Below are positions 6,662-22,314 of a DNA stretch of 64,000 nt, piece by piece. A model generated the notes under the pieces. It was not told where the DNA came from. It did not search any database and worked only from the letters and a program-made list of their open reading frames with translations. Every line of letters begins with the position of its first letter. Positions within the stretch are counted from its first letter, which is position 1. Origin of the DNA: Aurantiacibacter poecillastricola (GTDB lineage Bacteria; Pseudomonadota; Alphaproteobacteria; Sphingomonadales; Sphingomonadaceae); assembly GCF_030730945.1 (NCBI RefSeq), contig NZ_JAVAMS010000002.1, forward strand, positions 186,001 to 250,000, in the 5' to 3' direction. The translations under genes were made by a program, and so were the position numbers.

Positions 6662-8119
6662 ATGCGCGCGCTTCTCCGTTCCGTAATGACCGCTTCGCTT
6701 GCCGCCATGGCAGCGGGACTGCACGCGCAGGACATTGCCGATGGCGAAACTCCGGTAGATGAAGACGCGCCGATCGGGGTGCGGATGAACGATGAGGGCG
6801 CGGTCACTGCCTACCCGCAAACCTACGGGCCGCCGGCAACCGAGGCCGAACTGGTCCGCGAACCGGCGCCTGTCGCGATTCCGGATCCCCTCGATTTCGC
6901 CGCGGCGCAGGCCGCCGCCACGCACCCGCTGGTCGAAGCCGCCGAGGCGGAAGCCACGGCGCTCGGTTCGGAACTGCGCGGCGCGCGCTGGCTGCGCTAT
7001 CCCAGCCTCTCGGTAGAGGCGCTGGCAGCGACCGAGGGCTCGTCATTCGCCGACGAGGACGGGCTCGCGCTCAACGCCGTGGTGGAGCAGCCGATCTGGA
7101 GCGGCGGACGCATCGGAGGCGAAATCCGCCGTGCCCGTTCCAACCTCCGCTCAGGACAGGACCGGGTGGACGAGGCGCAGCGCGACATCGTGTTGCGCGT
7201 GGTCCAGGCCTATTACAACTACGTGCTGGCGACAGAACGCTACACCGTTCTCGAAGACAGTCTCGTCGAACACAACCAGTTGCTGGAGGCGATCGGCCGC
7301 CGGGTGGACCAGCAGGTGTCCCCCCGGGCCGACCTGACGCTGGGCCAGTCGCGCACTGCGCAGGTCGAGCTGGACCTCGCCTCGACCGAGGAAAGCCGGG
7401 ACAGCGCGCTCGTCCGTCTTCTCGAACTGACCGGCGGCATAGCCGTGGAGCCGACGCTGCCACCCCCCGGCATGGCGGAAATCCTGCCGCCGGAGGAAAT
7501 CGCGCTCGCCGAGGCGCTGGCCTGCAGCCCCAGCCTGGCAGCGCTTACCGACCTGATCGATGTGGCGGAAGCGAACAAGGATATCGCCCGTGCCCAGCTA
7601 TGGCCGCAAGTGCTGCTGCAGCTCTCGCAGAACGAGATCACCGGCACCCGCGCCGCCATCGTGCTGCGCGCGCAGACCGGCAATGGCCTCTCGCAACTTG
7701 CCGCGATCGACACCTCAGATGCCCGCATCCAGCGCGCGCTGGCCGAGTTCGGCGAGGCAGAGCGGACCTTGCGAGAGCAGCTGCGCCGCGATTACGTGCT
7801 CGTCCGCGCCTCGCTCGCCCGGATCGAGGCGGGCGTACTCGCCGCCGACGCCGCGGCCGAGATCATCGACAGCTATCAGCGTCAGTTCATCGCCGGCAGG
7901 CGAAGCTGGCTCGACGTTATGAACGCCACGCGGGAAGCGGCCAATGCGCGCCTTTCCGAAACGGATGCCCGCGTCACGGCAGCAGGTGGAACCGCGCGCA
8001 TCCTCGCCCTGACTTGTCGCTGGCAGCCGGCCGGCGCCGTGAACGGCGCAGTCATGGACACCGTCATGGGCACGGGGAGCGGCGCGGTATCGGGCGCGAC
8101 AGAAGGAATTGACGAGTGA
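6662..8119 (+). CDS. TolC-family outer-membrane protein of a type I secretion system
   Basis: This 485-residue protein begins MRALLRSVMTASLAAM with a signal peptide ending near GLHAQ. Two OEP helical-hairpin repeats follow, including LNAVVEQPIWSGGRIGGEI, which is typical of type I TolC proteins. The C-terminus is a low-complexity Gly/Ser/Thr/Met tail. The frame is open upstream to 6566, but the signal peptide fixes the start at 6662; no strong ribosome-binding site is visible. It ends in a GTGA overlap with the ABC gene, so TolC, ABC and HlyD form one operon. The 206-base upstream gap is AT-richer and probably holds the promoter, though no convincing -35/-10 pair was found. Confidence 0.87.
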   Translation: MRALLRSVMTASLAAMAAGLHAQDIADGETPVDEDAPIGVRMNDEGAVTAYPQTYGPPATEAELVREPAPVAIPDPLDFAAAQAAATHPLVEAAEAEATALGSELRGARWLRYPSLSVEALAATEGSSFADEDGLALNAVVEQPIWSGGRIGGEIRRARSNLRSGQDRVDEAQRDIVLRVVQAYYNYVLATERYTVLEDSLVEHNQLLEAIGRRVDQQVSPRADLTLGQSRTAQVELDLASTEESRDSALVRLLELTGGIAVEPTLPPPGMAEILPPEEIALAEALACSPSLAALTDLIDVAEANKDIARAQLWPQVLLQLSQNEITGTRAAIVLRAQTGNGLSQLAAIDTSDARIQRALAEFGEAERTLREQLRRDYVLVRASLARIEAGVLAADAAAEIIDSYQRQFIAGRRSWLDVMNATREAANARLSETDARVTAAGGTARILALTCRWQPAGAVNGAVMDTVMGTGSGAVSGATEGIDE

Positions 8120-10248
8120 GTGACGGCAGCGTCGAACGCGCTATAGCGAATTATGCCCGCGCGACGGGCAAGCCGCTTTCCCCGCACTGGAACGCGGAGC
8201 TTCGCGAGGTGGAACTTGCCGAGGGCGTCGACGCGCTCGCCGGCCTTCTTGCCACACTGGGGTGGGAGCCTGCGCGCCGCATCGAAGGGCGGCCGCGTCC
8301 CGACCAGTTCCCGCTGATCGTTCACGATCCCGCTTCCGGCTGGGCCGTTGTGCAGCAATGGGATGGCAGCGACGTGATGGCTCTGGTGGGCGAGCGCGCC
8401 AGCCTGCCCTACGATCCCGATCAGCGCTTCTTCACCCTGAGCCTGCCAGACCCGCTTTCGAGCGATGGCGACAAGGCGATTTCGGTTTTTTGGCGCGCGA
8501 TCAAGCGGCGCAAGCAGCCGCTGGTGATGGCCGGACTTGCCACCGTGTTCGCCAATCTGCTGACGCTGGCGACCTCGCTCTATTCGATGCAGCTTTACGA
8601 CCGGGTCATCCCGCTCGCCAGCTTCGATACGCTGCTTGTGCTGACTGCGGGCGTGCTGTTTGCGCTTACGCTGGACCTGTGCCTCAGGTCCCTGCGCGCG
8701 CTGCTGATCGAGCGCGAGGCGCAGGATATCGATGCCGAGGTGTCGGAATTCTTCTTCGCCCGCGCGCAATCCATCCGCCTCGATGCGCGGCCTCCGGGCA
8801 TCGGTACCATGGCCTCGCAGCTGCGCGGTCAGGAGCAGATTCGCCAAGTGCTTTCGTCCGGCTCGCTGTTCATGCTGGCCGACCTGCCATTCGCCCTGTT
8901 CTTCATCGCCGTCATCGCGATGATCGGCGGTCCGCTCGCGCTGGTGCCCGCGGTCAGCCTGCCCATCGCCATCGGCTTCGCACTGATCCTTTCCCGCATC
9001 ATCCGCACCGGCACGGACCGCGCGCAGGTAAGTGGCAATCGCAAGAACGGCATGCTGGTCGAATCGCTCGACGCGACGGAGACGGTAAAGGCCAATCGCG
9101 GCGGCTGGTTCATGATGGGCCGCTGGAACCGGCTGGTGCGCGAAATCCATCACTACGAAGACCCGGTGAAGAGGGCCTCTGCTATTGCCGGATCGCTCTT
9201 CTCGACCCTGCAGCAGACCGCCTATGTCGCGCTAATGGGGTGGGGCGCCTACCTCGCCGCCAATGGCGAGATCACGACGGGTGCGCTGCTTGCCTGTTCG
9301 ATCATCGCGGGGCGCATCAACGGCCCGCTGGTGGCACAGCTGCCGAACATGATCGTACAATGGGGCTACGCGCGTTCATCGCTGAAGGCGCTCGACCAGA
9401 TCATGAGGCTGCCGCTCGACCCGGCCAGTGGGGCCGGCGCGCTGCGGCCCGATACGATGGCCGGCAGCTACGAGGTGAAGGACGCGGTGTTCGTCTATCC
9501 GGGTTCGCAGCGCCCGGCAGTGGAAGTGGAAAGCTTCCAGCTCAACCCCGGAGAGCGCGTGGCCATCATCGGCGGGATCGGTTCGGGCAAGTCGACTTTG
9601 CTGAAGCTGCTTTCGGGCCTCTACTCACCACAGCAAGGTCGCGTGCTGCTGGGCGGGCTCGATCTCAGCCAGGTGGCGGAGGACATCTCGCGCCGTCATA
9701 TCGGCTATGTCTCGCAAGACGCGCGTCTGGTGAACGGGACTTTGCGCGACAACCTCGCGATGGGTCTGGGCGACGTGACCGACGAGGAAATCATGGAAGT
9801 CGCGCGCGATACCAAGCTCGACGCCATGATTGCGACGCAGCCTAATGGCCTTTCGCTGCAGATCCAGGAAGGCGGCCGCGGCCTGTCGGGTGGACAGCGT
9901 AGCCTCGTCGGCATCAACCGTTTGCTGCTTTCCGATCCCAAGATCTGGCTGCTGGACGAACCGACGGCCTCGCTCGACCAGAACACGGAGAACGCCGCGC
10001 TGGAGGCGATTGACCGCGAGCTCGACGACGACGGCATCCTCGTGATGGTCACGCACAAGCCGCAATTGCTGCCGCGCTTCAGCCGCATCGTGGTCATGGC
10101 GCAGGGCAAGATCGTGCGCGACGGGCCGACGAAGGAAATCCTTGGCGACCTCTCGCCCAAGAAGCTGGGCGATGGTGCACGCGGGCCGGCCAAGGGTCCG
10201 CCCTCCGGCATGGTGACCACCAAGATTTCGAACAAGAAAGCATCGTGA
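8116..10248 (+). CDS. Type I secretion system permease/ATPase (LssB/HlyB-like)
   Basis: This 710-residue half-transporter ABC exporter starts with GTG. Residues 1-125 form a C39-peptidase-like domain without any cysteine, so it cannot cleave a leader and probably only docks substrate. The six-helix membrane domain spans about 140-420. The nucleotide-binding domain follows: Walker A GGIGSGKST near 486-494, Q-loop in YVSQDARLV, signature GLSGGQRSL, Walker B KIWLLDEPTASLD and switch His in VTHKPQ. The signature block resembles the LapB/LssB group, which exports RTX adhesins. It is coupled to the genes on both sides by 4-base overlaps. A C-terminal tail rich in Lys, Gly and Pro follows the ATPase. 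Confidence 0.92.
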   Translation: MSDGSVERAIANYARATGKPLSPHWNAELREVELAEGVDALAGLLATLGWEPARRIEGRPRPDQFPLIVHDPASGWAVVQQWDGSDVMALVGERASLPYDPDQRFFTLSLPDPLSSDGDKAISVFWRAIKRRKQPLVMAGLATVFANLLTLATSLYSMQLYDRVIPLASFDTLLVLTAGVLFALTLDLCLRSLRALLIEREAQDIDAEVSEFFFARAQSIRLDARPPGIGTMASQLRGQEQIRQVLSSGSLFMLADLPFALFFIAVIAMIGGPLALVPAVSLPIAIGFALILSRIIRTGTDRAQVSGNRKNGMLVESLDATETVKANRGGWFMMGRWNRLVREIHHYEDPVKRASAIAGSLFSTLQQTAYVALMGWGAYLAANGEITTGALLACSIIAGRINGPLVAQLPNMIVQWGYARSSLKALDQIMRLPLDPASGAGALRPDTMAGSYEVKDAVFVYPGSQRPAVEVESFQLNPGERVAIIGGIGSGKSTLLKLLSGLYSPQQGRVLLGGLDLSQVAEDISRRHIGYVSQDARLVNGTLRDNLAMGLGDVTDEEIMEVARDTKLDAMIATQPNGLSLQIQEGGRGLSGGQRSLVGINRLLLSDPKIWLLDEPTASLDQNTENAALEAIDRELDDDGILVMVTHKPQLLPRFSRIVVMAQGKIVRDGPTKEILGDLSPKKLGDGARGPAKGPPSGMVTTKISNKKAS

Positions 10249-11399
10249 TGAAGGCGCTTCGCCCCGCACACTGGATTATCATCGTCATCGCCGCGACCCT
10301 GATCGCTTTCATCAGCTGGGCGCAATGGGCGGAGCTGGACCAGGTTACCCGTGCACCGGGCCGGGTGGTGCCCTTCGCCCGCGTGCAGATCGTGCAGAGC
10401 GAGGAAGGCGGCGCCATCAGCGCCATCAGTGTGCGCGAAGGCGACATGGTGCAGCAGGGCGACCTGCTCGTCGAACTCGATACGGTGCAGCTTGCCGCGG
10501 GCGTCGAGGAAGCGCGCGCTCAGGTTGCCGCATTGCAGAGCCGCATGGCGCGCATCGATGCCGAGCTGTTCAACAAGCCGCTCTCCTTCCCCGCCAGCCT
10601 CGCGGGCTTTCCCGAATTCACCGCCAACCAGCGCCAGCTGTTCATGCGTCGCCAAGCCGCACATGCCGCCGAACTGCGCGCGCTGAGCAACATGGCGGAG
10701 CTGCAGCAGGAAGAGCTGGACCTGAACCAGCCGCTGGTTTCCACCGGCGACGTGGCGCAGTCCGAAATCATCCGGATGGAGCGCGCCATCGTCGAGACGC
10801 AAGGCCGCATCTCGAACATCCAGGCGCAATATGTCCGCGACCTGCAGACCGAATTTACCCAGACCGAGGAGGAACTGGTTGCCGCGCAGCAGCAACTCAC
10901 CCAGCGCGAGGATTCCCTGCGTGCGGCTTCGCTCGTCGCGCCGACAGACGGTATCGTCAAGAACGTCCGCCTTACAACCGTGGGCGGCGTGCTGCGGCCG
11001 GGCGACGAGGTCTTGCAGATCGTGCCGACTGGCGAACAGCTGATCGTGGAAGCGCAGGTGCCGCCGCGCGACATTGCTTTCGTGCAGTTGGGCCAGCGAG
11101 CCCGCGTGAACTTCGACGCGTATGACAGCGCGGTCTACGGTTCGGGCGACGGCGAGGTAGTCTATATCAGCCCCGATACCTTGTCCGAGGAGCGGGATGA
11201 CGGAACCGTCAACACCTACTACCGCGTGAACCTTGAGGTCAGCACCGACACCATGAACCCGCGCAACGCCGGCGAGACGATCGACCTGCAACCGGGCATG
11301 ACGGCGACGGCTGAAATCCTGACGGGGTCGCAAACTGTGTGGGAGTACATCACGAAGCCGATCCTCAAGACGACCAGACAATCCCTGCAGGAACGCTGA
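10245..11399 (+). CDS. HlyD-family type I secretion periplasmic adaptor
   Basis: This 384-residue adaptor starts at GTG 10245, overlapping the ABC stop; an in-frame ATG follows directly at 10248. A membrane anchor at about residues 9-26 (WIIIVIAATLIAFISWAQW) is followed by a biotinyl-lipoyl half (GRVVPFARVQIVQSEEGG). A long coiled coil comes next, then the second lipoyl half (SLVAPTDGIVKNVRL) and the beta-barrel. The ending matches the HlyD secretion-protein signature region. With the preceding TolC and ABC genes it completes an inner-to-outer membrane exporter. The following gene is on the other strand, so no substrate gene is appended to this operon. Confidence 0.92.
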   Translation: MMKALRPAHWIIIVIAATLIAFISWAQWAELDQVTRAPGRVVPFARVQIVQSEEGGAISAISVREGDMVQQGDLLVELDTVQLAAGVEEARAQVAALQSRMARIDAELFNKPLSFPASLAGFPEFTANQRQLFMRRQAAHAAELRALSNMAELQQEELDLNQPLVSTGDVAQSEIIRMERAIVETQGRISNIQAQYVRDLQTEFTQTEEELVAAQQQLTQREDSLRAASLVAPTDGIVKNVRLTTVGGVLRPGDEVLQIVPTGEQLIVEAQVPPRDIAFVQLGQRARVNFDAYDSAVYGSGDGEVVYISPDTLSEERDDGTVNTYYRVNLEVSTDTMNPRNAGETIDLQPGMTATAEILTGSQTVWEYITKPILKTTRQSLQER

Positions 11400-11828: not shown

Positions 11829-12629
11829 CTAGTCCTTCGTTGATCGAGCGGCGAACTGCCCAAGCTGCGGAGCGAACCAGCGCGCACCCCGGCGCTCCGC
11901 TTCGGCAGGCGGAATGGTTGCCAGCGCTCTCGCCAGTCGCGCGATGTTGCTGGCGCAGAGCGATTCCAGCGGCGCGACATAGACGCCGATCGTGAACAGG
12001 ATGGCGCCCGTTTGCGGGAGGCGGCGCAGGGTCTGGCGCTCGCAGCGTACGAACAGGGTTTCGCCTGCATTTTCTGCGGTGACGTGCGCGAAGGTTTGCG
12101 CAGGTGGCTTCGTCTCGATCCAGCGCAGCGAGGGTGTGGGGGAGACGAACCAGTTGGTCCGCCCGAAAATCCTGCCGGGACGCAGCTTGGCCATGAAGTG
12201 GTCGACCCCGCTGGCGAGCTGTTCTTCATAACCGTCGATCGGAGCGTGGAGGGCGACCAGAGGCAGGCCCAGCTTCTCTGCCGGGAGCCAGTCGGTCGGG
12301 TAGGCCACCGCGGCACCGATCAACCGGTAGGGCTCGTCCGGAGAAGGTGCCGTCAGCAAGCACATGTCCTCATGCGCAGACCGTGCCGCGCCCGCCAGTC
12401 CGCCGCTCGTGCCGATGATCGCTGCCAGTTCCTCGCCCGGAGCCTGCGCCTCGGGCAGGATCTGCACGCTTTCTGGATGTGCATCGAAAGCGGCAGCGCG
12501 TGCGGAGAGGTCGGGCTCTGGTTGCAGCCATTCGTCCTCCCCCAGCGTCACCAGCCCCATTTTCAACGCCCCGCCGCCGCGCGCCCTTGGCAGCAGGTCC
12601 TCAACCGAGAAGCCGAGCTTTGCGCTCAA
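11829..12629 (-). CDS. DUF3445 protein (heme-dependent oxidative N-demethylase alpha-like)
   Basis: The product is 266 residues when read from a TTG at 12629 that overlaps the stop of the upstream epimerase gene in TTGA. The first domain residues (KMGLVTLGEDEWLQPEPDL) follow about 23 residues in, whereas the longer open frame upstream is only the shadow of the epimerase. Recognisable segments are LLTAPSPDEPYRLIGAAVAYPTDWLP, GRIFGRTNWFV, FVRCERQTLRRLPQTGAILFTI and the C-terminal YVAPL. DUF3445 includes the alpha subunit of dimethylamine heme monooxygenase-type enzymes. No partner flavoprotein or ferredoxin gene is adjacent, so the substrate is unknown. The TTG start is inferred. Confidence 0.8.
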   Translation of the reverse strand: MSAKLGFSVEDLLPRARGGGALKMGLVTLGEDEWLQPEPDLSARAAAFDAHPESVQILPEAQAPGEELAAIIGTSGGLAGAARSAHEDMCLLTAPSPDEPYRLIGAAVAYPTDWLPAEKLGLPLVALHAPIDGYEEQLASGVDHFMAKLRPGRIFGRTNWFVSPTPSLRWIETKPPAQTFAHVTAENAGETLFVRCERQTLRRLPQTGAILFTIGVYVAPLESLCASNIARLARALATIPPAEAERRGARWFAPQLGQFAARSTKD

Positions 12630-13069
12630 TGACCGGCGCCTTCCTTCGGACTTTCCATGATCTCGGTAAGCTGGCCCATCATGTCCTTGGGGTGGAGGAA
12701 GAAGATCGGCGTGCCGTGTGCGCCGATGCGGGTGGGGCCGAGGATGCGCTTGCCCATCGCCTCGAACTCGGCGCGGGCAGCCTCGATGTCGGGGACTTCG
12801 AAGCAAACATGATGCTGACCGCCCAGCGGGTTCTTGGCGAGGAAGCCCGTTACCGGCGATTCCTCGCTGAGCGGAGCCAGCAGTTCCAGCTGTGTGCCCT
12901 CCTGCCCGCCAGCGCCCGGCGTGTTTACGAAGCATACCTTCACGCCCTGTTCGGGGAGGTCGAAGGGCTCGGTGATGTTGGTCGCGCCCAGCACTTCGCG
13001 GTAGAAGGCGATGGCCTCGGCAAGGTCGGGAACGGCAACGCCGATGTGGTTGAAGCGGCCAAGCTGCAT
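12626..13069 (-). CDS. mce: Methylmalonyl-CoA epimerase
   Basis: This is a 147-residue glyoxalase/VOC-fold protein with two beta-alpha-beta-beta-beta modules. Metal ligands expected for the family are visible: His in NHIGVAVPD, Glu or Gln in TQLELLAP, His in GGQHHVCFEVPD and Glu in GQLTEIMES. The enzyme interconverts the (S) and (R) forms of methylmalonyl-CoA on the propionyl-CoA to succinyl-CoA route. The start at 13069 has a good AAGGAG about 8 bases upstream. Its usual partner, methylmalonyl-CoA mutase, is not in the window. It is followed by a TTGA overlap with the DUF3445 gene, an odd pairing. Confidence 0.85.
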   Translation of the reverse strand: MQLGRFNHIGVAVPDLAEAIAFYREVLGATNITEPFDLPEQGVKVCFVNTPGAGGQEGTQLELLAPLSEESPVTGFLAKNPLGGQHHVCFEVPDIEAARAEFEAMGKRILGPTRIGAHGTPIFFLHPKDMMGQLTEIMESPKEGAGH

Positions 13070-13095: not shown

Positions 13096-13914
13096 CTAGC
13101 GCAGGCCCAGCCGCTCTACCAACTCTCCGATATTGCCGATCACGATGTCGGGCGTTTTGCCCGGTGGCTGCTGCTCCCATTCGGCGGCGCTGGTCGAGCC
13201 TGAAGTCACAGCGATGCCCACCGCCCCGCCAACGCGCGCCATCTGCATCTCCGCCGTAGCATCGTCGCCCACGACGCCTACGTCCTGTGCCGCAATGCCC
13301 AGCTGGCTGGCAATGAAGGCAAGGGCGTGTTCGCTCGGCTTGCCGGTCGGTTGCGGCTGCACTCCGGTGACGCGCGCGATCGCGCCGTTGATGGCGCAGC
13401 TATAACCGAAGCTGCGGCCTTCCTTGGTGGCGAAGAACGGCACGTCCGACGCGGTGAGGAAAGCCGCGCCATCCAGCACGGCCTCGCAGGCGGCGTGGAT
13501 ATGCGGCATCGAGCAATCGGGGTGCCAGGCGATGTAGACGGCGTCGCAACCCTTGTGGTCACCGTCCGGCAAAACGCAGGTCACGCCCAGTTCCTCCAGC
13601 GCGTCGACCACGCCATCGGTGCCCAGCACCAGCACCCGCTCGTACCCTCCGTCCGCGATGACCTTGGCCGCGACCGAGTTGGGCGTGAACAGCTTTTCGT
13701 CCGGCACCGGCAGTCCGATATCGCGCAAACGCGGGGCCTGCACGCGGCTGGCGTAGGCGCTGCCGTTGGTGAGCGCGATCCATGGCACGCCGAGATCGTC
13801 GAGATGGCCGAGAGCCTCCGCCGCGCCGGGAATGGCTTCATAGCTGCCCAGCTTGCGATTGGAGAGGATCAGCGTCCCGTCCAGATCGAACATAAAACCC
13901 TTTGGTGTGCGCAT
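13096..13914 (-). CDS. HAD-superfamily class IIA phosphatase (NagD-like)
   Basis: This 272-residue HAD hydrolase has motif I FDLDGTLI (nucleophile Asp in DLDGT), motif II IALTNGS, and a C2-type cap. Motif III Lys is in the PTGKPSEHALAF segment and motif IV in VGVVGDDATAEMQMA. HAD-IIA enzymes dephosphorylate small phosphoesters such as nucleotides, sugar phosphates, pyridoxal phosphate or 4-nitrophenyl phosphate. It lies directly downstream of the carboxyltransferase/kinase block (162-base gap) and on the same strand. That makes it a candidate for removing an aryl phosphate made by that block, which is inference only. The final residues end just before the epimerase gene. Confidence 0.83.
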   Translation of the reverse strand: MRTPKGFMFDLDGTLILSNRKLGSYEAIPGAAEALGHLDDLGVPWIALTNGSAYASRVQAPRLRDIGLPVPDEKLFTPNSVAAKVIADGGYERVLVLGTDGVVDALEELGVTCVLPDGDHKGCDAVYIAWHPDCSMPHIHAACEAVLDGAAFLTASDVPFFATKEGRSFGYSCAINGAIARVTGVQPQPTGKPSEHALAFIASQLGIAAQDVGVVGDDATAEMQMARVGGAVGIAVTSGSTSAAEWEQQPPGKTPDIVIGNIGELVERLGLR

Positions 13915-14076: not shown

Positions 14077-15537
14077 TCACCGCTGCACCTCTATCGAGAG
14101 ATCGTCCTTCTCCAGGCTAAGGCCGTCGAGATCGCTGCGTGACAGGACATCGCGCAGCAGGTTCATCAGCGGCACCTTGCGCGGATCGTATTCCCGCTGT
14201 GCCGGGCCAGCCGCCTGCATCGCGTCGACAAGGTTCTGCGGCATGGTGGCGCGCAGCAGGAATTCCTCGTCCGAGAGGCCAGTTCCCAGCTTCTTTCGCA
14301 GTTCGGCCACATCGGTCATGCCCTTTTCGGCCTCGAGTTCCTTCGTGCGCGGATTGGCCATGATGCGGTCCATCACGTCCGGATCGACCGGTGCATTGGG
14401 CCTGCCGAACTTGCCGATAGCAAAGCGGATGATCTCGTCGGGGATCACGCTCCAGCGTTCCTCGCTGGTCACGTTCATCACTGCCTGCGTCTGGAGCATC
14501 TGGGCGAACGGCGTCATCACGATGGGCCAGCCAAGCTCGCGCCGCACGCGGCCCATTTCCTCGATCACCGCGCCTTCCAGCTCCGGAACGCCCTGGTCCG
14601 CCAGGTGGCGGCGCATGGTGCCCACCATGCCGCCGGGCAGGTTGTGCTGGAAATAGGCGGCGTCGAAATGCATCGGCTCGCCCTTGGGCAGGTTCTCGGC
14701 ATCGGCAATGGCAGTGAACCAATCTGCGATCTCGTCCACCGCCTCGTCATCCAGATCGACCGTGTGGCCCGTTGCGCGAAGGTTCGCCACCGTGCCCTTC
14801 ACGGATGGATGCGAGGTGCCGCTAGAAAGGCCGCCGCTGGCGCATTGCAGGGCGGCGATGCCCATGTCCGCCGCCTCGCAATAGGCCTGCTCGGCAAGGC
14901 CGATGGTGGAATGCGAGTGCAGTTCCAGCGGCAGGTCGCCGATCTCGGCCATGATCGCGGGGATCAGGGTTGCGGCGCGCTTGGAGGTCAGCAAGCCGCC
15001 GGGGTCCTTGATGTAGAGCGCATCGATATCCTTGCTTGCCGCCATGGTGCGGGCAGCCTCGGCATAGTGCGCATCGTCGTGGATCGGGCTGATCGAATAG
15101 ACCAGCGCGCCCACCACCTGCTCCCCGCCGGCACGCTTCACCATGCGGGCGACCTCGACGTTCGATTTCGCATCGTTCATCGGATCGGCAAGGGCAAAGC
15201 GGCGGATGCCGTTGCGCGCGAGAGTGGCGAAAGCCAGCTCCATGAAATCGGGCGTGGCGGTTTCCCAGGCGATGAAGCGGAAGCCGGTGGAGAGGAACTG
15301 CAGCGGCGTGTTGCCGCAGATGTCCGCCATGCCGCGAATGCGCTCCCACGGGTCCTCCTGCTTGTAGCGCACGGCCACGCCCATGTGGGTGGAGGTGGTA
15401 AAATCGATGGCAGAGAAGCCCGCGCGCTCCATGACGGGCGCGATGGAGAGTGTCTTCGCGGTGTCGATACCGGTCGCGCCCCACAGGCACTGGTTGCCAT
15501 CGCGCAAGCTGGTTTCGACGATCTGGATGTTTGTCAT
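14077..15537 (-). CDS. OadA/5S-type carboxyltransferase subunit of a biotin-dependent carboxylase
   Basis: This 486-residue enzyme starts at MTNIQIVETSLRDGNQ. The N-terminal HMGL-like TIM barrel carries the metal Asp in SLRDGNQ, the conserved Lys in YIKDPGG (carbamylated in relatives) and the metal His pair in LELHSHSTIGLA. A conserved PYC/OADA domain occupies about 290-470 (RVRRELGWPIVMTPFAQML). Relatives move CO2 between carboxybiotin and a 2-oxoacid. Here the usual IKDMAG and HTHDT motifs have diverged to IKDPGG and HSHST, suggesting a different acceptor. No biotin domain is attached; the separate carrier gene lies 127 bases upstream. By analogy with HpeCBA it may carboxylate a phosphorylated aryl methyl ketone. 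Confidence 0.8.
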   Translation of the reverse strand: MTNIQIVETSLRDGNQCLWGATGIDTAKTLSIAPVMERAGFSAIDFTTSTHMGVAVRYKQEDPWERIRGMADICGNTPLQFLSTGFRFIAWETATPDFMELAFATLARNGIRRFALADPMNDAKSNVEVARMVKRAGGEQVVGALVYSISPIHDDAHYAEAARTMAASKDIDALYIKDPGGLLTSKRAATLIPAIMAEIGDLPLELHSHSTIGLAEQAYCEAADMGIAALQCASGGLSSGTSHPSVKGTVANLRATGHTVDLDDEAVDEIADWFTAIADAENLPKGEPMHFDAAYFQHNLPGGMVGTMRRHLADQGVPELEGAVIEEMGRVRRELGWPIVMTPFAQMLQTQAVMNVTSEERWSVIPDEIIRFAIGKFGRPNAPVDPDVMDRIMANPRTKELEAEKGMTDVAELRKKLGTGLSDEEFLLRATMPQNLVDAMQAAGPAQREYDPRKVPLMNLLRDVLSRSDLDGLSLEKDDLSIEVQR

Positions 15538-15564
15538 TATGCGCTCAACTCCCAATCGCCGAGT

Positions 15565-15644
15565 GGGCTGAGCATGTCGAAGCCCTGCCTTTCTTCTCGC
15601 GTCTTGGCTGAAAGACCAAGGCAGCCCTTCGACAGGCTCAGGGC
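15565..15644. repeat. REP-like intergenic inverted repeat
   Basis: The arms 15565-15590 and 15619-15644 are 26 bases each and match at 21 positions when one is inverted. They carry the cores TGTCGAAGCCCTGCCT and AGGCAGCCCTTCGACA. A smaller inverted pair CTTGG/CCAAG lies in the loop. It occupies nearly the whole gap between the biotin carrier and carboxyltransferase genes. Sequences of the form TTCGACAGGCTCAG recur widely in sphingomonad genomes, so this is probably a dispersed palindromic element that could stabilise or end the upstream transcript. Confidence 0.7.
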
Positions 15645-15664
15645 AGTCGGATGTATGGCAGCCA

Positions 15665-16165
15665 TCAGTCCACTTTCACCCGGATGATTGCCTGCCCCTT
15701 CTCGATGGCGGCGCCGTTCTCCGGCAGCACCGCCGTGACCGTGCCGGAAACACCTGCGCGCACAGAGTTCATCAGCTTCATCACCTCGATGATGGCGATC
15801 ACCGTGTCGGGCTCTACCCGGTCGCCCACCTCGACGAAGGGATCTTCGCCGGGACGCGGGGCGGCGTAGTAGTTGCCGAGCAATGGCGCGGGGACGTCGA
15901 CTTCTCCCTCGCTTGGCTCGCCATGGGCCTGCGCAGTGCCGGATGGGGGCGGGGAGGGCGGCGGTTCGACGCCTGCCTCGCCTTCGGGTTCGGGCTCGTC
16001 GCCGGCTTCGTCCTCGACCTCGTCGGTCACCCAGCGACCGCCACCGGTACCGCCATCGCGGCGGATGCGGAGGCGGAAGCCCTCCATCTGCACGTCGAGC
16101 GAGGAAAACTGCGACTCACCCAGCAGCCGGGCGATCTCGGCCACGTCCTTGCCTGTCAGCGTCAC
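15665..16165 (-). CDS. Biotin carboxyl carrier protein
   Basis: This 166-residue protein starts at a GTG (16165) that overlaps the stop of the kinase ATP-binding subunit in GTGA. It has an AccB-like N-terminal helix (LTGKDVAEIARLLGESQFSSLDVQMEG) and an acidic, proline-rich linker at about 45-95. The C-terminal biotinyl domain carries the acceptor Lys130 in EVMKLMN. The family usually reads EAMKMMN or EAMKLMN, so the motif is intact enough for biotinylation. It shuttles carboxybiotin to the downstream OadA-like subunit. No biotin carboxylase gene is visible in the window, so charging must use an enzyme encoded elsewhere. A much longer open frame extends upstream but overlaps the kinase gene and is not coding. 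Confidence 0.83.
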   Translation of the reverse strand: MTLTGKDVAEIARLLGESQFSSLDVQMEGFRLRIRRDGGTGGGRWVTDEVEDEAGDEPEPEGEAGVEPPPSPPPSGTAQAHGEPSEGEVDVPAPLLGNYYAAPRPGEDPFVEVGDRVEPDTVIAIIEVMKLMNSVRAGVSGTVTAVLPENGAAIEKGQAIIRVKVD

Positions 16166-17205
16166 GCTTTCCTGCCTCCGAAGATCGACATGACGTGGTT
16201 GTAGGCCTTGCCTTCGGGCTTCTTGACCGGCGCGCTCTCGGCGTCCTTCATCGCCCAGACCGTCTCGGGCCGCGATTGCAGCAGCAGGATCTGGCCGTCC
16301 TCGTCCAATGCCCACTCGATATCCTGCGGCTTTCCGTAATGCCGTTCCACCTTGCGGCCCACCTCGCGCAAGGCCAGCAATTCGTCGTCGGTGAGACAGG
16401 GGGCGTTTCGCCTGTCCGCCTCGTTCTCCACCTCCACGATGCCGCCGCCATCCGCGGGCACCTGCCGCGCGTGCTTGTCGGAGATCTCGCGGCTGGAAAT
16501 CTCGCCGGTGATCTTGCCGACCACCCATTTGTCCGGCGTCACCTCGCCCGAGACCACGCTGGAGCCGAGACCCCACGCCCCCTCGATAGTGATGACCGAC
16601 TTGTCGCCGCTGGTGGGGGAGCGGGTGAACATCACGCCTGCGCATTTCGCATCCACCATGCGCTGCACCACCACGGCCATGGCAACGCCATCTTCGGGAA
16701 AGTCCTGCTTGCGGCGGTATGTCATGCTCTCGACCGAGTAGAGCGAGGCCCAGCACTCGCGCACACGGTCCAGCATGGTCTCTGCATCGAGCACCCACAG
16801 GAAGGTGTCCTGCAGACCCGCGAAACTGGCGTCCTCGGCGTCCTCGGTAGTGGCGGAGGAGCGCACGGCGACCGGCTGGCCGTCCTCGCAAAGCTGCGCA
16901 TGGGCGGCCTTCAGCGCCTCCTGCACCTCGGCAGGCATCGGCTCGTCCATCACCCGTGCGCGCAGGTTTTCGGACAGCTTGGTCGCCGCGCCAAGGTCCT
17001 GCGGGTCGAGAGCCTCGACCTGCGGGCGGATCGGTTCGCGGGCTTCCAGCGCGGAAAGGAATTGCTCGAAGGCGGCGACGGTCACCACGAAGCCGGGCGG
17101 CACGGTGATGCCCGCCTGCGTCAGCTCGCCCAGCGAGCCGCCCTTGCCGCCCACGGTGGGGCGATCCTTAATGCCGACATCGGCGAACCAGGCGACCGCC
17201 TCCAT
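16162..17205 (-). CDS. PEP-synthase-like ATP-binding subunit (phenylphosphate synthase beta / HpeH-I type)
   Basis: This 347-residue protein is a stand-alone PEP/pyruvate-binding, ATP-grasp-like domain. It has GGKGGSLGELTQAGITVPPGFVVT at the N-terminus and the nucleotide segment AVRSSATTEDAEDASFAGLQDTF. Also present are MVDAKCAGVMFTRSP and GLGSSVVSGEVTPD, and the family ending DIEWALDEDGQILLLQSRP. It corresponds to the first third of PEP synthase and to the roughly 40-kDa subunit of phenylphosphate synthase. The expected job is to load beta-phosphate from ATP onto the mobile His subunit encoded just upstream. It lies 3 bases after that gene and overlaps the biotin carrier gene downstream. Confidence 0.82.
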   Translation of the reverse strand: MEAVAWFADVGIKDRPTVGGKGGSLGELTQAGITVPPGFVVTVAAFEQFLSALEAREPIRPQVEALDPQDLGAATKLSENLRARVMDEPMPAEVQEALKAAHAQLCEDGQPVAVRSSATTEDAEDASFAGLQDTFLWVLDAETMLDRVRECWASLYSVESMTYRRKQDFPEDGVAMAVVVQRMVDAKCAGVMFTRSPTSGDKSVITIEGAWGLGSSVVSGEVTPDKWVVGKITGEISSREISDKHARQVPADGGGIVEVENEADRRNAPCLTDDELLALREVGRKVERHYGKPQDIEWALDEDGQILLLQSRPETVWAMKDAESAPVKKPEGKAYNHVMSIFGGRKA

Positions 17206-17208
17206 CGC

Positions 17209-19056
17209 TCAGGCCTCCTCCAGCTCGCGGGCCTCGGCGGGGTGGGCGAGGATCGTCACCGTGCCCTTGCCGCCATCGACGCGGATGGTGGCCCCGTCGG
17301 GAATCTTCTGCGAGGCGTTGCCGGTGCCCACCACGGCGGGCAGGTCGTACTCACGCGCCACGATGGCCATGTGGCTCATCGAGCCGCCAATGTCGGAGAC
17401 CGCCGCGCTGATCTTCTGGAACAGCGGCGACCAGGTGGGGTTCGTCACCTGGCACACGAGGATGTCGCCCGACTGGATGCGGTCGATCTCCTTCACCGAC
17501 TTGATGACCCGCGCGGTGCCTTCCACCACGCCGTTGCAGGCGGCAAAGCCTTTCAGCTCGTTCGGGTCCGCCTCGCCATCGGACAGCCACGCGTCGAGGT
17601 TCTCGCGGGTGATGCCCCACAGCATGACGATGGCGGGATCGTCGATCACGTCGGGCACGACGCCCAGCGCCGGGGGCACCGTCTCGCCCGCCCAGGTCTC
17701 GATCGCCGCCTGCCGCTGCCTGACGATCGCCGGCCAGCGCGAGGGGCCAAGCGGTTCGGACCCGCTGGACCAGCTGAGCATCAGGTCGACGATGGCGCTT
17801 TCCAGCTCGTAATGGGTGAGGTGGAACACGTCCTCCTCCTTCTCGAAGAAGCCGTGATCGCGCAGCAGCGCGCCATATTCGCGGATCTTGTTGAAGAACA
17901 GATTCGTGTACCAGTGCTCGCAGTAGAACTTGTGGCCTTCCACATAGGGGAACACGCGGTGCGCCAGCTCGATCAGCTGGTCGTAGGTCGCCTTGTCTTC
18001 CTTTGTATCGAGCAGTTCGCGGTAATCGGCGACCATCTGGTCACGCTCTTCCACCAGCTTGTCCATCGGGCGCTCGATGTTCTCGCCCGCCTTGATCTTC
18101 TCGATATAGCCGGGGAGGGCAGCGAAGGGCATTGAGAGGTCGTCGTTCCAGCTGCGGTGATAGTGGTAGAAGCCATCGCCGACATTCACGTTGAACCACG
18201 GGTTGCGGCTTTTCTCCAGCTCGCCCAGCCACTCGCGGCCCGAATTGCCTACTGTGTCGAGATCGGCGAGCACATTGTCGATATCCATCTCGGGCGTGAA
18301 GTGCTGGTCCACGCCCAGCTCCACCGCGCGGCGGGCGAGGCGCTTCACTTCCTCGTCGGGCTTGAAGATCTCCGCTTCCATGCCCGCCACCATGCGGCTG
18401 ATCGCCTGGTCGGAAATCTCGGGGAAGGCCGTCTTGCAGAAGTCGAAGAAGGTGAGATACGCGCCGTAGCCCAGCAGCAGGAACTCGAAGTGGTGATGCC
18501 ACATCTGGTAGTAGCCGTTGAGTTGCTTGCGATAGGTCTCGATCAGCGCGTGGTTGGCGGCCACGCCCTTGCCCGAGTGGGTGGTCTCGATGGGCTCCAG
18601 ATCGGGCAGATGCGGCTTCGGCAGGTCCTGCGCCTCGGCGATCAGCGCCTTCATCTTGTCCTTCCACTGGTCGTAAAGCTTCTCCCAGTGCTCGTAATAG
18701 TAGAAGCCGCGCTGCTGGAATTCCGCCGCGCGCGCCTCGACCTCCTCGGGGTCGGTGACGGGCACGCCGCCGATGAAGACGCGGCCATTGATGATGCGGT
18801 GGTCGATGCCCTTGGTGGTGGGCAGCACGTGGACGCGGGTGTTGAAGGCGCCCAGCGCGCAATAGGCGGCTTCTGCCGTGATCATGTCGAAGTGATGCAT
18901 GGGCTCTGGGAAATGCATCGAGTTGTAGAACCAGAACCGCTCGTCATCGCCCGGCTGGAACTGGCAGTAATAGGGGTAGGCGGCCTGCGCCTCTTCGGTG
19001 CCCGGTGTGACTTTTAGCGAGCTGGGGAGCGGGAAGCTCTTCGCAGTGTCTGACAT
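17209..19056 (-). CDS. PEP-utilizing phosphotransferase large subunit with swivelling His domain (phenylphosphate synthase alpha / HpeH-I type)
   Basis: This protein has 615 residues from the ATG at 19056. Residues 1 to about 480 form a Trp/Tyr-rich substrate domain without PEP-synthase similarity that I can recognise. The C-terminal 100 residues form the swivelling domain with phospho-His562 in GGSMSHMAIVARE. The size and layout match the 70-kDa alpha subunit of phenylphosphate synthase and the acetovanillone kinases HpeHI and Acv. They phosphorylate a phenolic hydroxyl. Another ATG lies at 19068, but a TATAAT at 19074-19079 would put the transcript start at or after it, favouring 19056. The gene heads the block kinase large, kinase small, biotin carrier, carboxyltransferase. 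Confidence 0.8.
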   Translation of the reverse strand: MSDTAKSFPLPSSLKVTPGTEEAQAAYPYYCQFQPGDDERFWFYNSMHFPEPMHHFDMITAEAAYCALGAFNTRVHVLPTTKGIDHRIINGRVFIGGVPVTDPEEVEARAAEFQQRGFYYYEHWEKLYDQWKDKMKALIAEAQDLPKPHLPDLEPIETTHSGKGVAANHALIETYRKQLNGYYQMWHHHFEFLLLGYGAYLTFFDFCKTAFPEISDQAISRMVAGMEAEIFKPDEEVKRLARRAVELGVDQHFTPEMDIDNVLADLDTVGNSGREWLGELEKSRNPWFNVNVGDGFYHYHRSWNDDLSMPFAALPGYIEKIKAGENIERPMDKLVEERDQMVADYRELLDTKEDKATYDQLIELAHRVFPYVEGHKFYCEHWYTNLFFNKIREYGALLRDHGFFEKEEDVFHLTHYELESAIVDLMLSWSSGSEPLGPSRWPAIVRQRQAAIETWAGETVPPALGVVPDVIDDPAIVMLWGITRENLDAWLSDGEADPNELKGFAACNGVVEGTARVIKSVKEIDRIQSGDILVCQVTNPTWSPLFQKISAAVSDIGGSMSHMAIVAREYDLPAVVGTGNASQKIPDGATIRVDGGKGTVTILAHPAEARELEEA

Positions 19057-20038: not shown

Positions 20039-20091
20039 TGCTCCTGCCGTGCCTCGCGCTAGTCTGTCGCAAAATGGGAGAGGAGACGAGA

Positions 20092-21135
20092 ATGCCTGGA
20101 AAGACGCGCCTGATCGCCTGCGAGGAAGCCTGGACGATTCCTGAAGTCGCCGCCGAATTGAAGAAAGTCGCGCGCAGTCCCAGCCAGAGCCTCGACAAGC
20201 TGCTTGTGGCGGGGATCTACGATGCGGAAGAGGATACTTCCGGCTACGGCAAGATGAACTTCCTGCAAGGCCTGCTCGACATAGAGGAGCAGCGCCTGCC
20301 GCAGATGGACGAACACGGCGTGGACATGCACCTGCTCACCCTGACGGCGCCCGGCGTACAGATGTTCGACGCCGATACCGCCACCGATCTCGCCGCGCTG
20401 AGTAACGATCGCATGGCCGAGATCTGCGCCAATCGCCCCGACCGTTTCGCCGGTCTCGGCAGCTTTGCCCCGCATAGTCCGAAGCGCGCAGCGAAGGAGG
20501 TGGAGCGGGTGATGACCGAGTTCAAGCTGAACGGCCTCGTCGTGAACAGTCATACCAATGGCGACTATTTCGATGACTACCGCTTCTGGCCTATCCTCGA
20601 AGCGGCGGAGGCGCATGACGCCTGCATCTACATCCACCCCCGCGCCCCGTCCGACACTCTGAAGGGACCGTTGCAGGACTATGCGATGGACAGTGCCATG
20701 TGGGGATATGGCGTGGAGGTGGGGACGATGATGCTGCGCATGATGGCAGGCGGCGTCTTCGACAGATTTCCGAAGCTGAAGATCTGCGTCGGCCATATGG
20801 GCGAGATGGTGCCGTTCTTCATCTGGCGCATAAACTTCATGAACTCGCGCGCGCAGACCGTTGGCAGGGCTCCGAAAACCGAGCGGAGCATGGAGGAATA
20901 CTTCCGCGACAACTTCGTCTTTACCACCAGCGGCGTAGAGGACCACCTCGCCCTGCGCTATGCCATCACCCGCATGGGAATAGACAATGTGATCTGGGCG
21001 ATCGACTACCCCTATCAACCAATGAAGCCCGCAGTGGATTTCATAAAGTCCTTCGAATGCACCGATGAGGAGCGCGAGGCGCTGTGTCACGGCAATGCGG
21101 AGCGGATTTTCCATATTGCGCCGCTCGACCAGTAA
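20092..21135 (+). CDS. Amidohydrolase-superfamily decarboxylase, LigW / gamma-resorcylate decarboxylase-like
   Basis: This 347-residue TIM-barrel protein belongs to the ACMSD group. Segments strongly recall 5-carboxyvanillate decarboxylase LigW: RLPQMDEHGVDMHLLTLTAPGVQ, NSHTNGDYFDDYRFWPI, YIHPRAPSD, GYGVEVGTMMLRM, VGHMGE and AIDYPYQP. Expected metal ligands are the early Glu (CEEAW), His of YIHP, His of GHMGE and Asp of IDYPYQ. Family members remove CO2 from hydroxylated benzoates without oxygen, some reversibly. The start at 20092 follows GGAGAGGAGACGAG; an in-frame ATG at 20074 is less likely. Its co-directional neighbour is a CoA transferase. The exact substrate, such as 5-carboxyvanillate or a resorcylate, is not determined. 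Confidence 0.8.
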   Translation: MPGKTRLIACEEAWTIPEVAAELKKVARSPSQSLDKLLVAGIYDAEEDTSGYGKMNFLQGLLDIEEQRLPQMDEHGVDMHLLTLTAPGVQMFDADTATDLAALSNDRMAEICANRPDRFAGLGSFAPHSPKRAAKEVERVMTEFKLNGLVVNSHTNGDYFDDYRFWPILEAAEAHDACIYIHPRAPSDTLKGPLQDYAMDSAMWGYGVEVGTMMLRMMAGGVFDRFPKLKICVGHMGEMVPFFIWRINFMNSRAQTVGRAPKTERSMEEYFRDNFVFTTSGVEDHLALRYAITRMGIDNVIWAIDYPYQPMKPAVDFIKSFECTDEEREALCHGNAERIFHIAPLDQ

Positions 21136-21177
21136 ACGCGCGTTTACCTACCTTGTCCAAGCGCGTAGGCGGAACTG

Positions 21178-22314
21178 ATGAGCGCAACCCCCCAAAACGC
21201 CCCGCTGGCCGGTATCAAGGTCGTCGAACTCGCCCGTATCCTGGCTGGCCCGTGGGCCGGGCAGGTGCTGGCCGATCTCGGCGCCGAAGTTACCAAGGTC
21301 GAAAGCCCCGATGGAGACGATACCCGCGGCTGGGGTCCGCCTTTCGTCGACCGGCCCGACGGCAGCAAGGATGCCGCCTATTTCCACGCCGCCAATCGCG
21401 GCAAGGACAGCGTGATTGCCGACTTCAACCGCGCAGGCGATATCAGCAGGGTCAAGGCGCTGATCGCGGAGGCCGACGTGGTGATCGAGAATTTCCGCCT
21501 TGGCAGCCTCGCCAAGTTCGGCCTCGATTACGAAAGCCTCAAGGCCGCCAATCCGCGCCTCGTCTATTGCTCGATCACCGGCTTCGGGCATGACGGCCCC
21601 TATTCCTCGCGGGCAGGCTATGATTTCATCGTGCAGGGCATGAGCGGCATCATGGACCTGACCGGCGAGCCCGAGGGCGAACCGCACAAGATCGGCGTCG
21701 CCTATGCCGACATCATGACGGGCCTCTACGCCGTGATTGGCATCCAGGCGGCGCTGCGCCAGCGCGAGACGACCGGGCGCGGGCAACTGGTGGACATGGC
21801 CCTGTTCGATGTGATGGTGGGCACGCTTGCCAACCAGGCGATGAATTTCCTCGCCTCGGGTCGCAGCCCGAAACGCATGGGCAACGCCCATCCCAACATC
21901 GCCCCTTACGAGGCGTTCGAGGCGAAAGATGGCTGGCTGATCGTGGCGGTGGGTAACGACCGGCAGTTTCAGCGCTTTGCCGAGGCGATTGACCTGCCGG
22001 TGCGCGAGGAGTGGACGAGCAACGCCCGCCGCGTGAAGAACCGCGTCTCGCTCTCCGCCTCCATCACCAAACGCATCGCCGAGATGAAGCGCGACGACCT
22101 GCTGCTGAAGATGGAGAACCGCAACATCCCCGCAGGTCCGATCAACAACGTGAAACAGGCCCTCACCGATCCGCAGATCGTGGCGCGCGGAATGGTGATC
22201 GACCTCGACGAGGATGGGCTGAAAGGCCTGCGCACCCCGATCAGGTTCTCCGACGCGCAGCTGGTGCTGGGCAAGCCATCTCCCGTGCTGCCGCGCGACG
22301 AGGAAGAGGATTGA
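21178..22314 (+). CDS. CaiB/BaiF (class III) CoA transferase
   Basis: This 378-residue enzyme matches the family III CoA-transferase pattern. It has LAGIKVVELARILAGPWAGQVLADLGAEVTKVE at the start, then RGKDSVIADFNR, NFRLGSLAKFGLDY, YCSITGFGHDGPYSSRAGYDFIVQGMSG and GQLVDMALFDVMV. The Asp-containing last segment normally supplies the acyl anhydride-forming carboxylate. It moves CoA between carboxylic acids. The stop overlaps the ATG of the OsmC-like gene (TGATG). In this aromatic-catabolic setting it may activate a beta-keto acid such as vanilloylacetate, as VceB is reported to do in Sphingobium; formyl-CoA or succinyl-CoA transfer to another acid is equally open. Confidence 0.87.
   Translation: MSATPQNAPLAGIKVVELARILAGPWAGQVLADLGAEVTKVESPDGDDTRGWGPPFVDRPDGSKDAAYFHAANRGKDSVIADFNRAGDISRVKALIAEADVVIENFRLGSLAKFGLDYESLKAANPRLVYCSITGFGHDGPYSSRAGYDFIVQGMSGIMDLTGEPEGEPHKIGVAYADIMTGLYAVIGIQAALRQRETTGRGQLVDMALFDVMVGTLANQAMNFLASGRSPKRMGNAHPNIAPYEAFEAKDGWLIVAVGNDRQFQRFAEAIDLPVREEWTSNARRVKNRVSLSASITKRIAEMKRDDLLLKMENRNIPAGPINNVKQALTDPQIVARGMVIDLDEDGLKGLRTPIRFSDAQLVLGKPSPVLPRDEEED

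Follow-up and report, generated by a model that had tools for sequence, protein, structure and literature searches.

A minus-strand gene block in a 64,000-nucleotide stretch of Aurantiacibacter poecillastricola DNA (contig NZ_JAVAMS010000002.1, positions 186,001 to 250,000; hereafter the window) appears to encode an Acv/Hpe-type pathway for 4-hydroxyphenyl methyl ketones that lacks a dedicated biotin carboxylase (BC), its distinct biotin carrier being probably charged by AccC, the housekeeping BC of fatty-acid synthesis. Gene families and gene order confirm the block as a predicted five-gene operon, H-I-C-B-D, arranged like hpeHICBAD and acvABCDEF minus the BC; H and I are the two subunits of a kinase, C the carrier, B a carboxyltransferase and D a phosphatase. 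A sequence-only reading of the window had described a phosphorylate-then-carboxylate block of this type, with which the gene families, their order and the identities to Sphingobium lignivorans SYK-6 agree. The four genes it listed, H to B, are all borne out, in coordinates and strand, by open reading frames (ORFs) and domain matches. However, the operon is longer than the four-gene block then proposed, the fifth gene, D, encoding a HAD-IIA phosphatase, having been overlooked. The same reading held that a BC is absent from operon and window, and a BC query indeed finds no match in the latter's first 30 kb. It did not notice that the lack of a BC is a conserved state, one that goes with a different type of carrier.

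Distribution of the operon without a biotin carboxylase

Relatives of the block were gathered by a carboxyltransferase scan of genome contigs, which yielded 74 loci, or 75 with the window. Thirty-three of the 75 lack a BC (window included), 37 possess one, and five are cut by contig ends; L050, L053, L066 and L068 were assigned to the BC-containing group by hand. With 33 loci alike, an assembly gap is ruled out as the cause of the missing gene. In the carboxyltransferase tree, 31 of the 33 BC-less loci fall in one sphingomonad branch, which they share with 12 BC-containing loci (those of SYK-6, Altericroceibacterium and Croceibacterium xixiisoli among them) and three unclassified ones. Outside that branch lie L065, from a Novosphingobium, and L069, from a short contig of a gammaproteobacterial metagenome-assembled genome (MAG). 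On this tree BC state must change four times, each change being forced by starred branches.

The BC-less genes are under purifying selection, with ratios of nonsynonymous to synonymous substitution rates (dN/dS) far below 1. By a simple counting method applied to six BC-less pairs, dN/dS for C is 0.07-0.30 in five pairs, the sixth showing no amino-acid change, while the values for B are 0.02-0.09 in all six and those for H, available in four pairs, 0.06-0.12. A sample of 397 genomes from the window's GTDB family contains 45 that match the carboxyltransferase at E<=1e-140, 33 of these at an identity of at least 70% (own genome included). An order-wide sample of 396 genomes, scanned with a different query, gave 20 matches at E<=1e-150, and a class-wide sample of 385 gave three, all in the own genus and again including the own genome. 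Two of the BC-less loci belong to Aurantiacibacter rhizosphaerae (L005) and A. xanthus (L024), which also hold distant carboxylase sets of the order C-BC-B-D (L082, L096, L097). These genomes carry both kinds of operon, and one cell can therefore hold both designs.

No announcement of BC-less acv operons or of their carrier was found in the literature covered, which extends to neither the MarK nor the Higuchi paper nor the supplement of PMC9618137, where clusters with "various combinations" of hpe homologues are shown. The BC-less operon is a variant of a known pathway, and its absence from print is unproven.

A distinct carrier accompanies the absence of the carboxylase

That the missing BC goes together with a different carrier is seen in trees of the individual genes. 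These were built on 50 common loci that have all five genes near full length, chosen from 70 (27 BC-less and 23 with BC, L069 being out). The C tree needs a single change of BC state, on a branch with a support of 99, as against five changes for H, five for I, three for B and four for D; starred branches alone force four, two, three and three changes in H, I, B and D, respectively. In a larger tree of 63 carriers, inferred under a site-mixture model, the BC-less carriers without L069 form one clade with support of 100/100. An origin of the BC-less carriers inside the sphingomonad BC-containing carriers is rejected by the approximately unbiased (AU) test (p 1.1e-5). In the Novosphingobium locus L065, H and B are of a BC-containing lineage and the carrier is of the BC-less type; placing that carrier with the sisters of its carboxyltransferase is likewise rejected (p 0.011). 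Because the carrier tree is unlike the trees of the neighbouring genes, a simple loss of the BC from an otherwise unchanged operon is disfavoured.

The two carrier types can also be told apart by single residues. The thumb of the carrier bears Arg (PRPG) in 32 of the 33 BC-less carriers aligned and Lys (PKPG) in all 33 BC-containing ones. Seven further loci recovered by a genome search agree without exception, four being BC-less with Arg and three BC-containing with Lys (L141 is a near-copy of the SYK-6 locus), so that in all the thumb Arg occurs in 36 of 37 operons without a BC and in none of the 36 with one. L134 and L135 are identical with L012 and L025 and hence uncounted, and L142 and L145 are without a carrier owing to a contig end. 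A second difference lies in the N-terminal domain, at residue three of its last strand: all 30 AccB sequences and 30 of 31 BC-less carriers have Arg or Lys there, and none of 31 BC-containing carriers does.

Several observations weigh against a distinct carrier charged by AccC. The groups compared in the AU test were named after the first tree had been seen, and in the I tree starred branches alone force only two changes. Once distant carriers and AccB are added to the carrier tree (13 distant carriers in; L069 and the near-copies L020 and L056 left out), the placing of the BC-less group is not settled (support 21). L069 (1530-1967) has no BC yet possesses a BC-type carrier; it comes from one short MAG contig, its N-terminal domain looks odd or damaged, and it may be a genuine additional case or the product of a sequence error. 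Compared with the AccB consensus, BC-less carriers have a mean identity of 0.465 and BC-containing ones of 0.425, with overlapping ranges and the window carrier at 0.421. Among distant carriers accompanied by a BC, all 14 that are readable at that N-terminal position have a basic residue there (L158 also has a BC, but its residue is unread and it stands outside the 14). As a general AccB-like marker this residue thus fails in the distant carriers, and it is kept as a within-family difference; being basic in distant BC-containing sets, it cannot by itself mean "charged by AccC". Finally, AccC itself has no position that separates BC-less from BC-containing genomes, and adaptation in AccC was dropped as an explanation on that ground. 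The link between carrier type and BC state stands, and an interface with AccC is unproven.

One might go further and propose that the BC-less carriers are a type chargeable by AccC, so that a single AccC would serve both fatty-acid synthesis and ketone catabolism, and that the carrier gene sets the choice of BC and has moved between operons as a unit. This extension is advanced tentatively, as something that could about as easily prove wrong. A rival account of the carrier grouping is convergence: several independent losses of the BC, each followed by similar changes in the carrier, would produce the same grouping. Convergence would leave the AccC mechanism unchanged and is compatible with it, but it runs against a shared or exchanged carrier. 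The four forced changes of BC state in the B tree suit such a history, and so does the L065 carrier, which shares the main-group residue at 10 of 14 listed carrier columns, its BC-containing sister L067 differing in five of these. The undivided carrier clade recovered under the site-mixture model and the rejected placement of L065 speak against it, and convergence is best regarded as possible but somewhat doubtful. Whichever history applies, the split in carrier type constitutes a natural experiment on carrier specificity for the BC.

Candidates for the missing carboxylase

The genome of A. poecillastricola, reported to be 100% complete, encodes three BCs, namely AccC, beside AccB, and two that are fused to a biotin domain of their own. 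The sequence-only reading had asked whether an orphan BC lies elsewhere in the genome; a search with the BC C-terminal domain returned three matches, all on contigs other than the window's. The census was extended to 22 BC-less genomes, 21 reached through the loci plus the own genome, in 19 of which AccC is the only stand-alone BC. One additional stand-alone BC occurs in the genome of L005 and three in that of L024, each beside its own carrier, and no stand-alone BC was seen in that of L017 (2.2 Mb of sequence). In the genome of L004, among the 19, two further BC pieces run off short contigs; their 44% identity to the SYK-6 BC is like that of the fused proteins. Apart from the own genome, the 21 BC-less genomes contain 39 longer BC frames, 43-49% identical to the SYK-6 BC; every one ends in a biotin motif and is thus fused. 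Frame length (above ~610 residues) is insufficient by itself to call a BC fused, one operon BC frame measuring 623 residues. Leaving AccC aside, the stand-alone BC closest to that of SYK-6 is 60% identical to it, compared with 67-88% for eight operon BCs. In none of the 22 BC-less genomes was an Acv-type BC found outside the operon, and the idea of a hidden copy elsewhere was dropped. In Alteraurantiacibacter buctensis (L035) and the L012 MAG, no BC besides AccC was found, with the reservation that either assembly may be incomplete. Elimination of the other BCs makes AccC the best candidate.

The fused proteins deserve separate consideration, as a fused subunit of an acyl-CoA or pyruvate carboxylase might charge the carrier in trans through its BC domain. 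Two fused BC-biotin proteins are encoded in the own genome, such genes occur in 20 of the 22 BC-less genomes, and a BC-domain gene lies ~4-6 kb downstream of D in L014, L016, L017 and L037. On the other hand, the two assemblies in which only AccC was found keep the BC-less block, subject to the same caveat on their completeness, and a fused BC domain normally acts on the biotin tethered to it. Charging in trans is accordingly rated improbable.

Proposed pathway

The substrates, judged by homology, would be acetovanillone, 4-hydroxyacetophenone and acetosyringone. By analogy with the Hpe enzymes, I would bind ATP and phosphorylate His562 of H, whose swivel domain would carry the phosphate to the ring hydroxyl of the ketone, a step supported in print for HpeHI. 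AccC, singled out by elimination and by the change in the carrier, would carboxylate the biotin on Lys130 of C. From carboxybiotin, B would transfer the carboxyl to the methyl carbon next to the carbonyl of the phosphorylated ketone, as suggested by homology to HpeCBA, and D, a homologue of HpeD, would dephosphorylate the carboxylated product. The beta-keto acid would then be cleaved, and the aromatic acid would enter vanillate/protocatechuate catabolism. Should AccC indeed charge C, lignin-ketone catabolism would compete with fatty-acid synthesis for carboxybiotin, and transfer of the pathway into a host would take one gene fewer, or a matching AccC. Such an arrangement accounts for an otherwise complete pathway appearing broken in genome annotation.

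A BC would be unneeded if there were no CO2 fixation at all and C and B acted as a transcarboxylase or decarboxylase that takes its carboxyl from another acid. In its favour stand the homology of B to the 5S subunit of transcarboxylase and the methylmalonyl-CoA epimerase gene next to the block (12626-13069). That neighbour is nevertheless inconstant: it was seen at 10 of the remaining 32 BC-less loci (not every contig reaches far enough to tell), at the unclassified L009 and at the BC-containing L023. The OadB sodium pump (PF03977) is absent from the genome, 12S-type PF01039 transferases are encoded elsewhere in it with none in the block, and the homologous BC-containing operons use the same B, all of which leaves this alternative a slim prospect. 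That the BC-less blocks are decaying, non-working remnants, as the lack of one subunit might suggest, is very unlikely in view of the open frames, the low dN/dS in all six pairs and an architecture conserved in 33 loci from several genera.

Comparison with known systems

Gene order and families are shared with acvABCDEF of SYK-6. The SYK-6 locus (L044), taken to be the acv operon because SYK-6 has only one full-length H, has the order H-I-C-BC-B-D, and its products are 82% (H), 68% (I), 45% (C), 72% (B) and 60% (D) identical to those of the window. It differs in its dedicated BC, between C and B, and in its carrier, which belongs to the other clade; neither is found in the window. Given the identities of H and B, acetovanillone or a related compound is very probably the substrate. 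The sequence-only reading had entertained a new substrate class, which those same identities demote from first choice in favour of the class of the SYK-6 operon.

The hpeHICBADEF operon of Rhodococcus rhodochrous GD02 follows the same logic with the same kinds of kinase, carrier, carboxyltransferase and phosphatase, and acvABCDEF is homologous and syntenous to hpeHICBAD, according to PMC9618137. Enzyme assays described there show that HpeHI phosphorylates acetovanillone and 4-hydroxyacetophenone, that HpeCBA carboxylates the phosphorylated ketone with ATP, and that HpeD then removes the phosphate (PMC9618137). Unlike the window operon, that of GD02 includes a dedicated BC, HpeA, and also the late genes hpeEF. 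The comparison with GD02 was made on I only: the best PDB match of the window I is chain A of 9GOJ (275 bits), a structure of HpeI. The article on that structure also reports that replacement of the phospho-His abolishes kinase activity (PMC12167813).

Ordinary phosphoenolpyruvate (PEP) synthase and pyruvate phosphate dikinase (PPDK) are single chains with a PEP/pyruvate domain, whereas the window kinase is split into subunits, and the match of H to ordinary PEP synthase is confined to the swivel domain. The sequence-only reading would have been undone by H clustering with ordinary PEP synthase; this did not occur, the nearest rows being the H proteins of acv-type operons, SYK-6 included, in a tree of 25 selected H rows and five outside rows whose long branches meet, used for nearest neighbours only. 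H scores above the cut-offs of NF006153 and NF006151, with matches that span almost the entire protein; both families bear the name "hypothetical protein". In the PDB, the molecule name of 9goj_A is phosphoenolpyruvate synthase, and the NCBIfam families of H are hypothetical proteins; through these database names, annotation hides this kinase family.

More distant systems share parts of this plan. The set on pBAR1 of Sphingomonas bisphenolicum has a carrier, BC, carboxyltransferase and phosphatase of the same families, but in pBAR1-like sets a Tm-1-like gene, possibly of the MarK type, replaces H and I. Across 17 such distant loci, the carboxyltransferase is 44-48% identical, and a BC is present in all 15 with a readable carrier. 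The phenylphosphate synthase on the plasmid of Azoarcus KH32C is also a split kinase, its H being 43% identical. There the phenylphosphate kinase genes are followed by ppc carboxylase genes, and no biotin carrier or OadA-type transferase is annotated; no ppc carboxylase genes occur among the subset of ORFs scanned around the block. In actinobacterial acyl-CoA carboxylases, one alpha subunit is common to several transferases. The use of one BC for several carboxylases resembles what is proposed here, with the difference that the shared part is a fused BC-carrier in those enzymes and would be a free AccC acting on a separate carrier in the present case. For the late steps (HpeEF or VceAB) no genes were located; one BKACE gene lies far off in the genome in a neighbourhood that looks unrelated, and its neighbours lend no support to reading it as VceA.

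Layout and surroundings of the block

The coordinates and domain matches of the five genes and of the C-B spacer are collected in Table 1. The genes follow one another closely, with 3 bp between H and I, an overlap of I and C, 127 bp between C and B and 162 bp between B and D, and the tight spacing is the reason for reading the block as one operon.

Table 1. Parts of the predicted operon in the window, listed in gene order
Feature	Position	Strand	Evidence
H, kinase large subunit (HpeH/AcvA type)	17209-19056	minus	PF00391 near C-terminus; NF006153 near full length
I, ATP-grasp kinase subunit (HpeI/AcvB type)	16162-17205	minus	PF01326 (PPDK_N ATP-binding domain)
C, biotin carboxyl carrier	15665-16165	minus	PF00364 biotinyl domain; TIGR00531 below cut-off
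C-B spacer, position of BC in SYK-6	15538-15664	minus	BC tblastn: no BC sequence here
B, OadA-type carboxyltransferase (HpeB/AcvE type)	14077-15537	minus	PF00682 (HMGL-like) and PF02436 (PYC_OADA)
D, HAD-IIA phosphatase in HpeD/AcvF place	13096-13914	minus	PF13344/PF13242; TIGR01460 below cut-off

The swivelling phospho-His562 of H, numbered from the second in-frame ATG, sits in the motif SDIGGSMSH, of the T/SxxGGxxxH type, which is present in 58 of 59 H sequences. C has a GTG start, from which its biotin lysine is Lys130 (133 from an alternative start codon), and carries the PRPG thumb of the BC-less type. B contains the motifs RDGNQ, IKDPGG and HSHST. The latter two had been called diverged in the sequence-only reading, a description that does not hold, as the motifs are typical of the family: all 33 BC-less relatives have IKDPGG, as do 30 of the 37 with a BC, and the H-x-H pair is kept in 70 of 70, taking the form HSHST in six of the 33 BC-less loci and HAHCT in SYK-6. 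In relatives, too, D comes after B.

An inverted-repeat element lies in the C-B spacer, with the core CTTCGACAGGCTCAGG at 15627-15642 (0 expected by chance); the same or a near-same core also occurs in the C-B spacers of L010, L011, L016, L024 and L026. Promoter and terminator scans yielded about as much as shuffled sequence.

Directly after D, the epimerase gene (TIGR03081 above cut-off) recurs in 12 of the 74 relatives. Divergent from the block at 20089-22314 are amidohydrolase and CoA-transferase III genes, possible late-step genes; near the block in relatives, an amidohydrolase recurs in 18 of 74 and a CoA-transferase in nine of 74 at an identity of at least 67%. The ferulate/protocatechuate neighbourhood pointed out earlier is supported by the genes at 24.2-32.2 kb, 5-13 kb from the block, for an aldehyde dehydrogenase, a LigB-domain dioxygenase, an enoyl-CoA hydratase and a fused CoA-ligase. 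On the other side, at 8116-11399, are genes for a type I secretion-like ABC transporter and an HlyD-like adaptor, as judged from reading of the translations alone.

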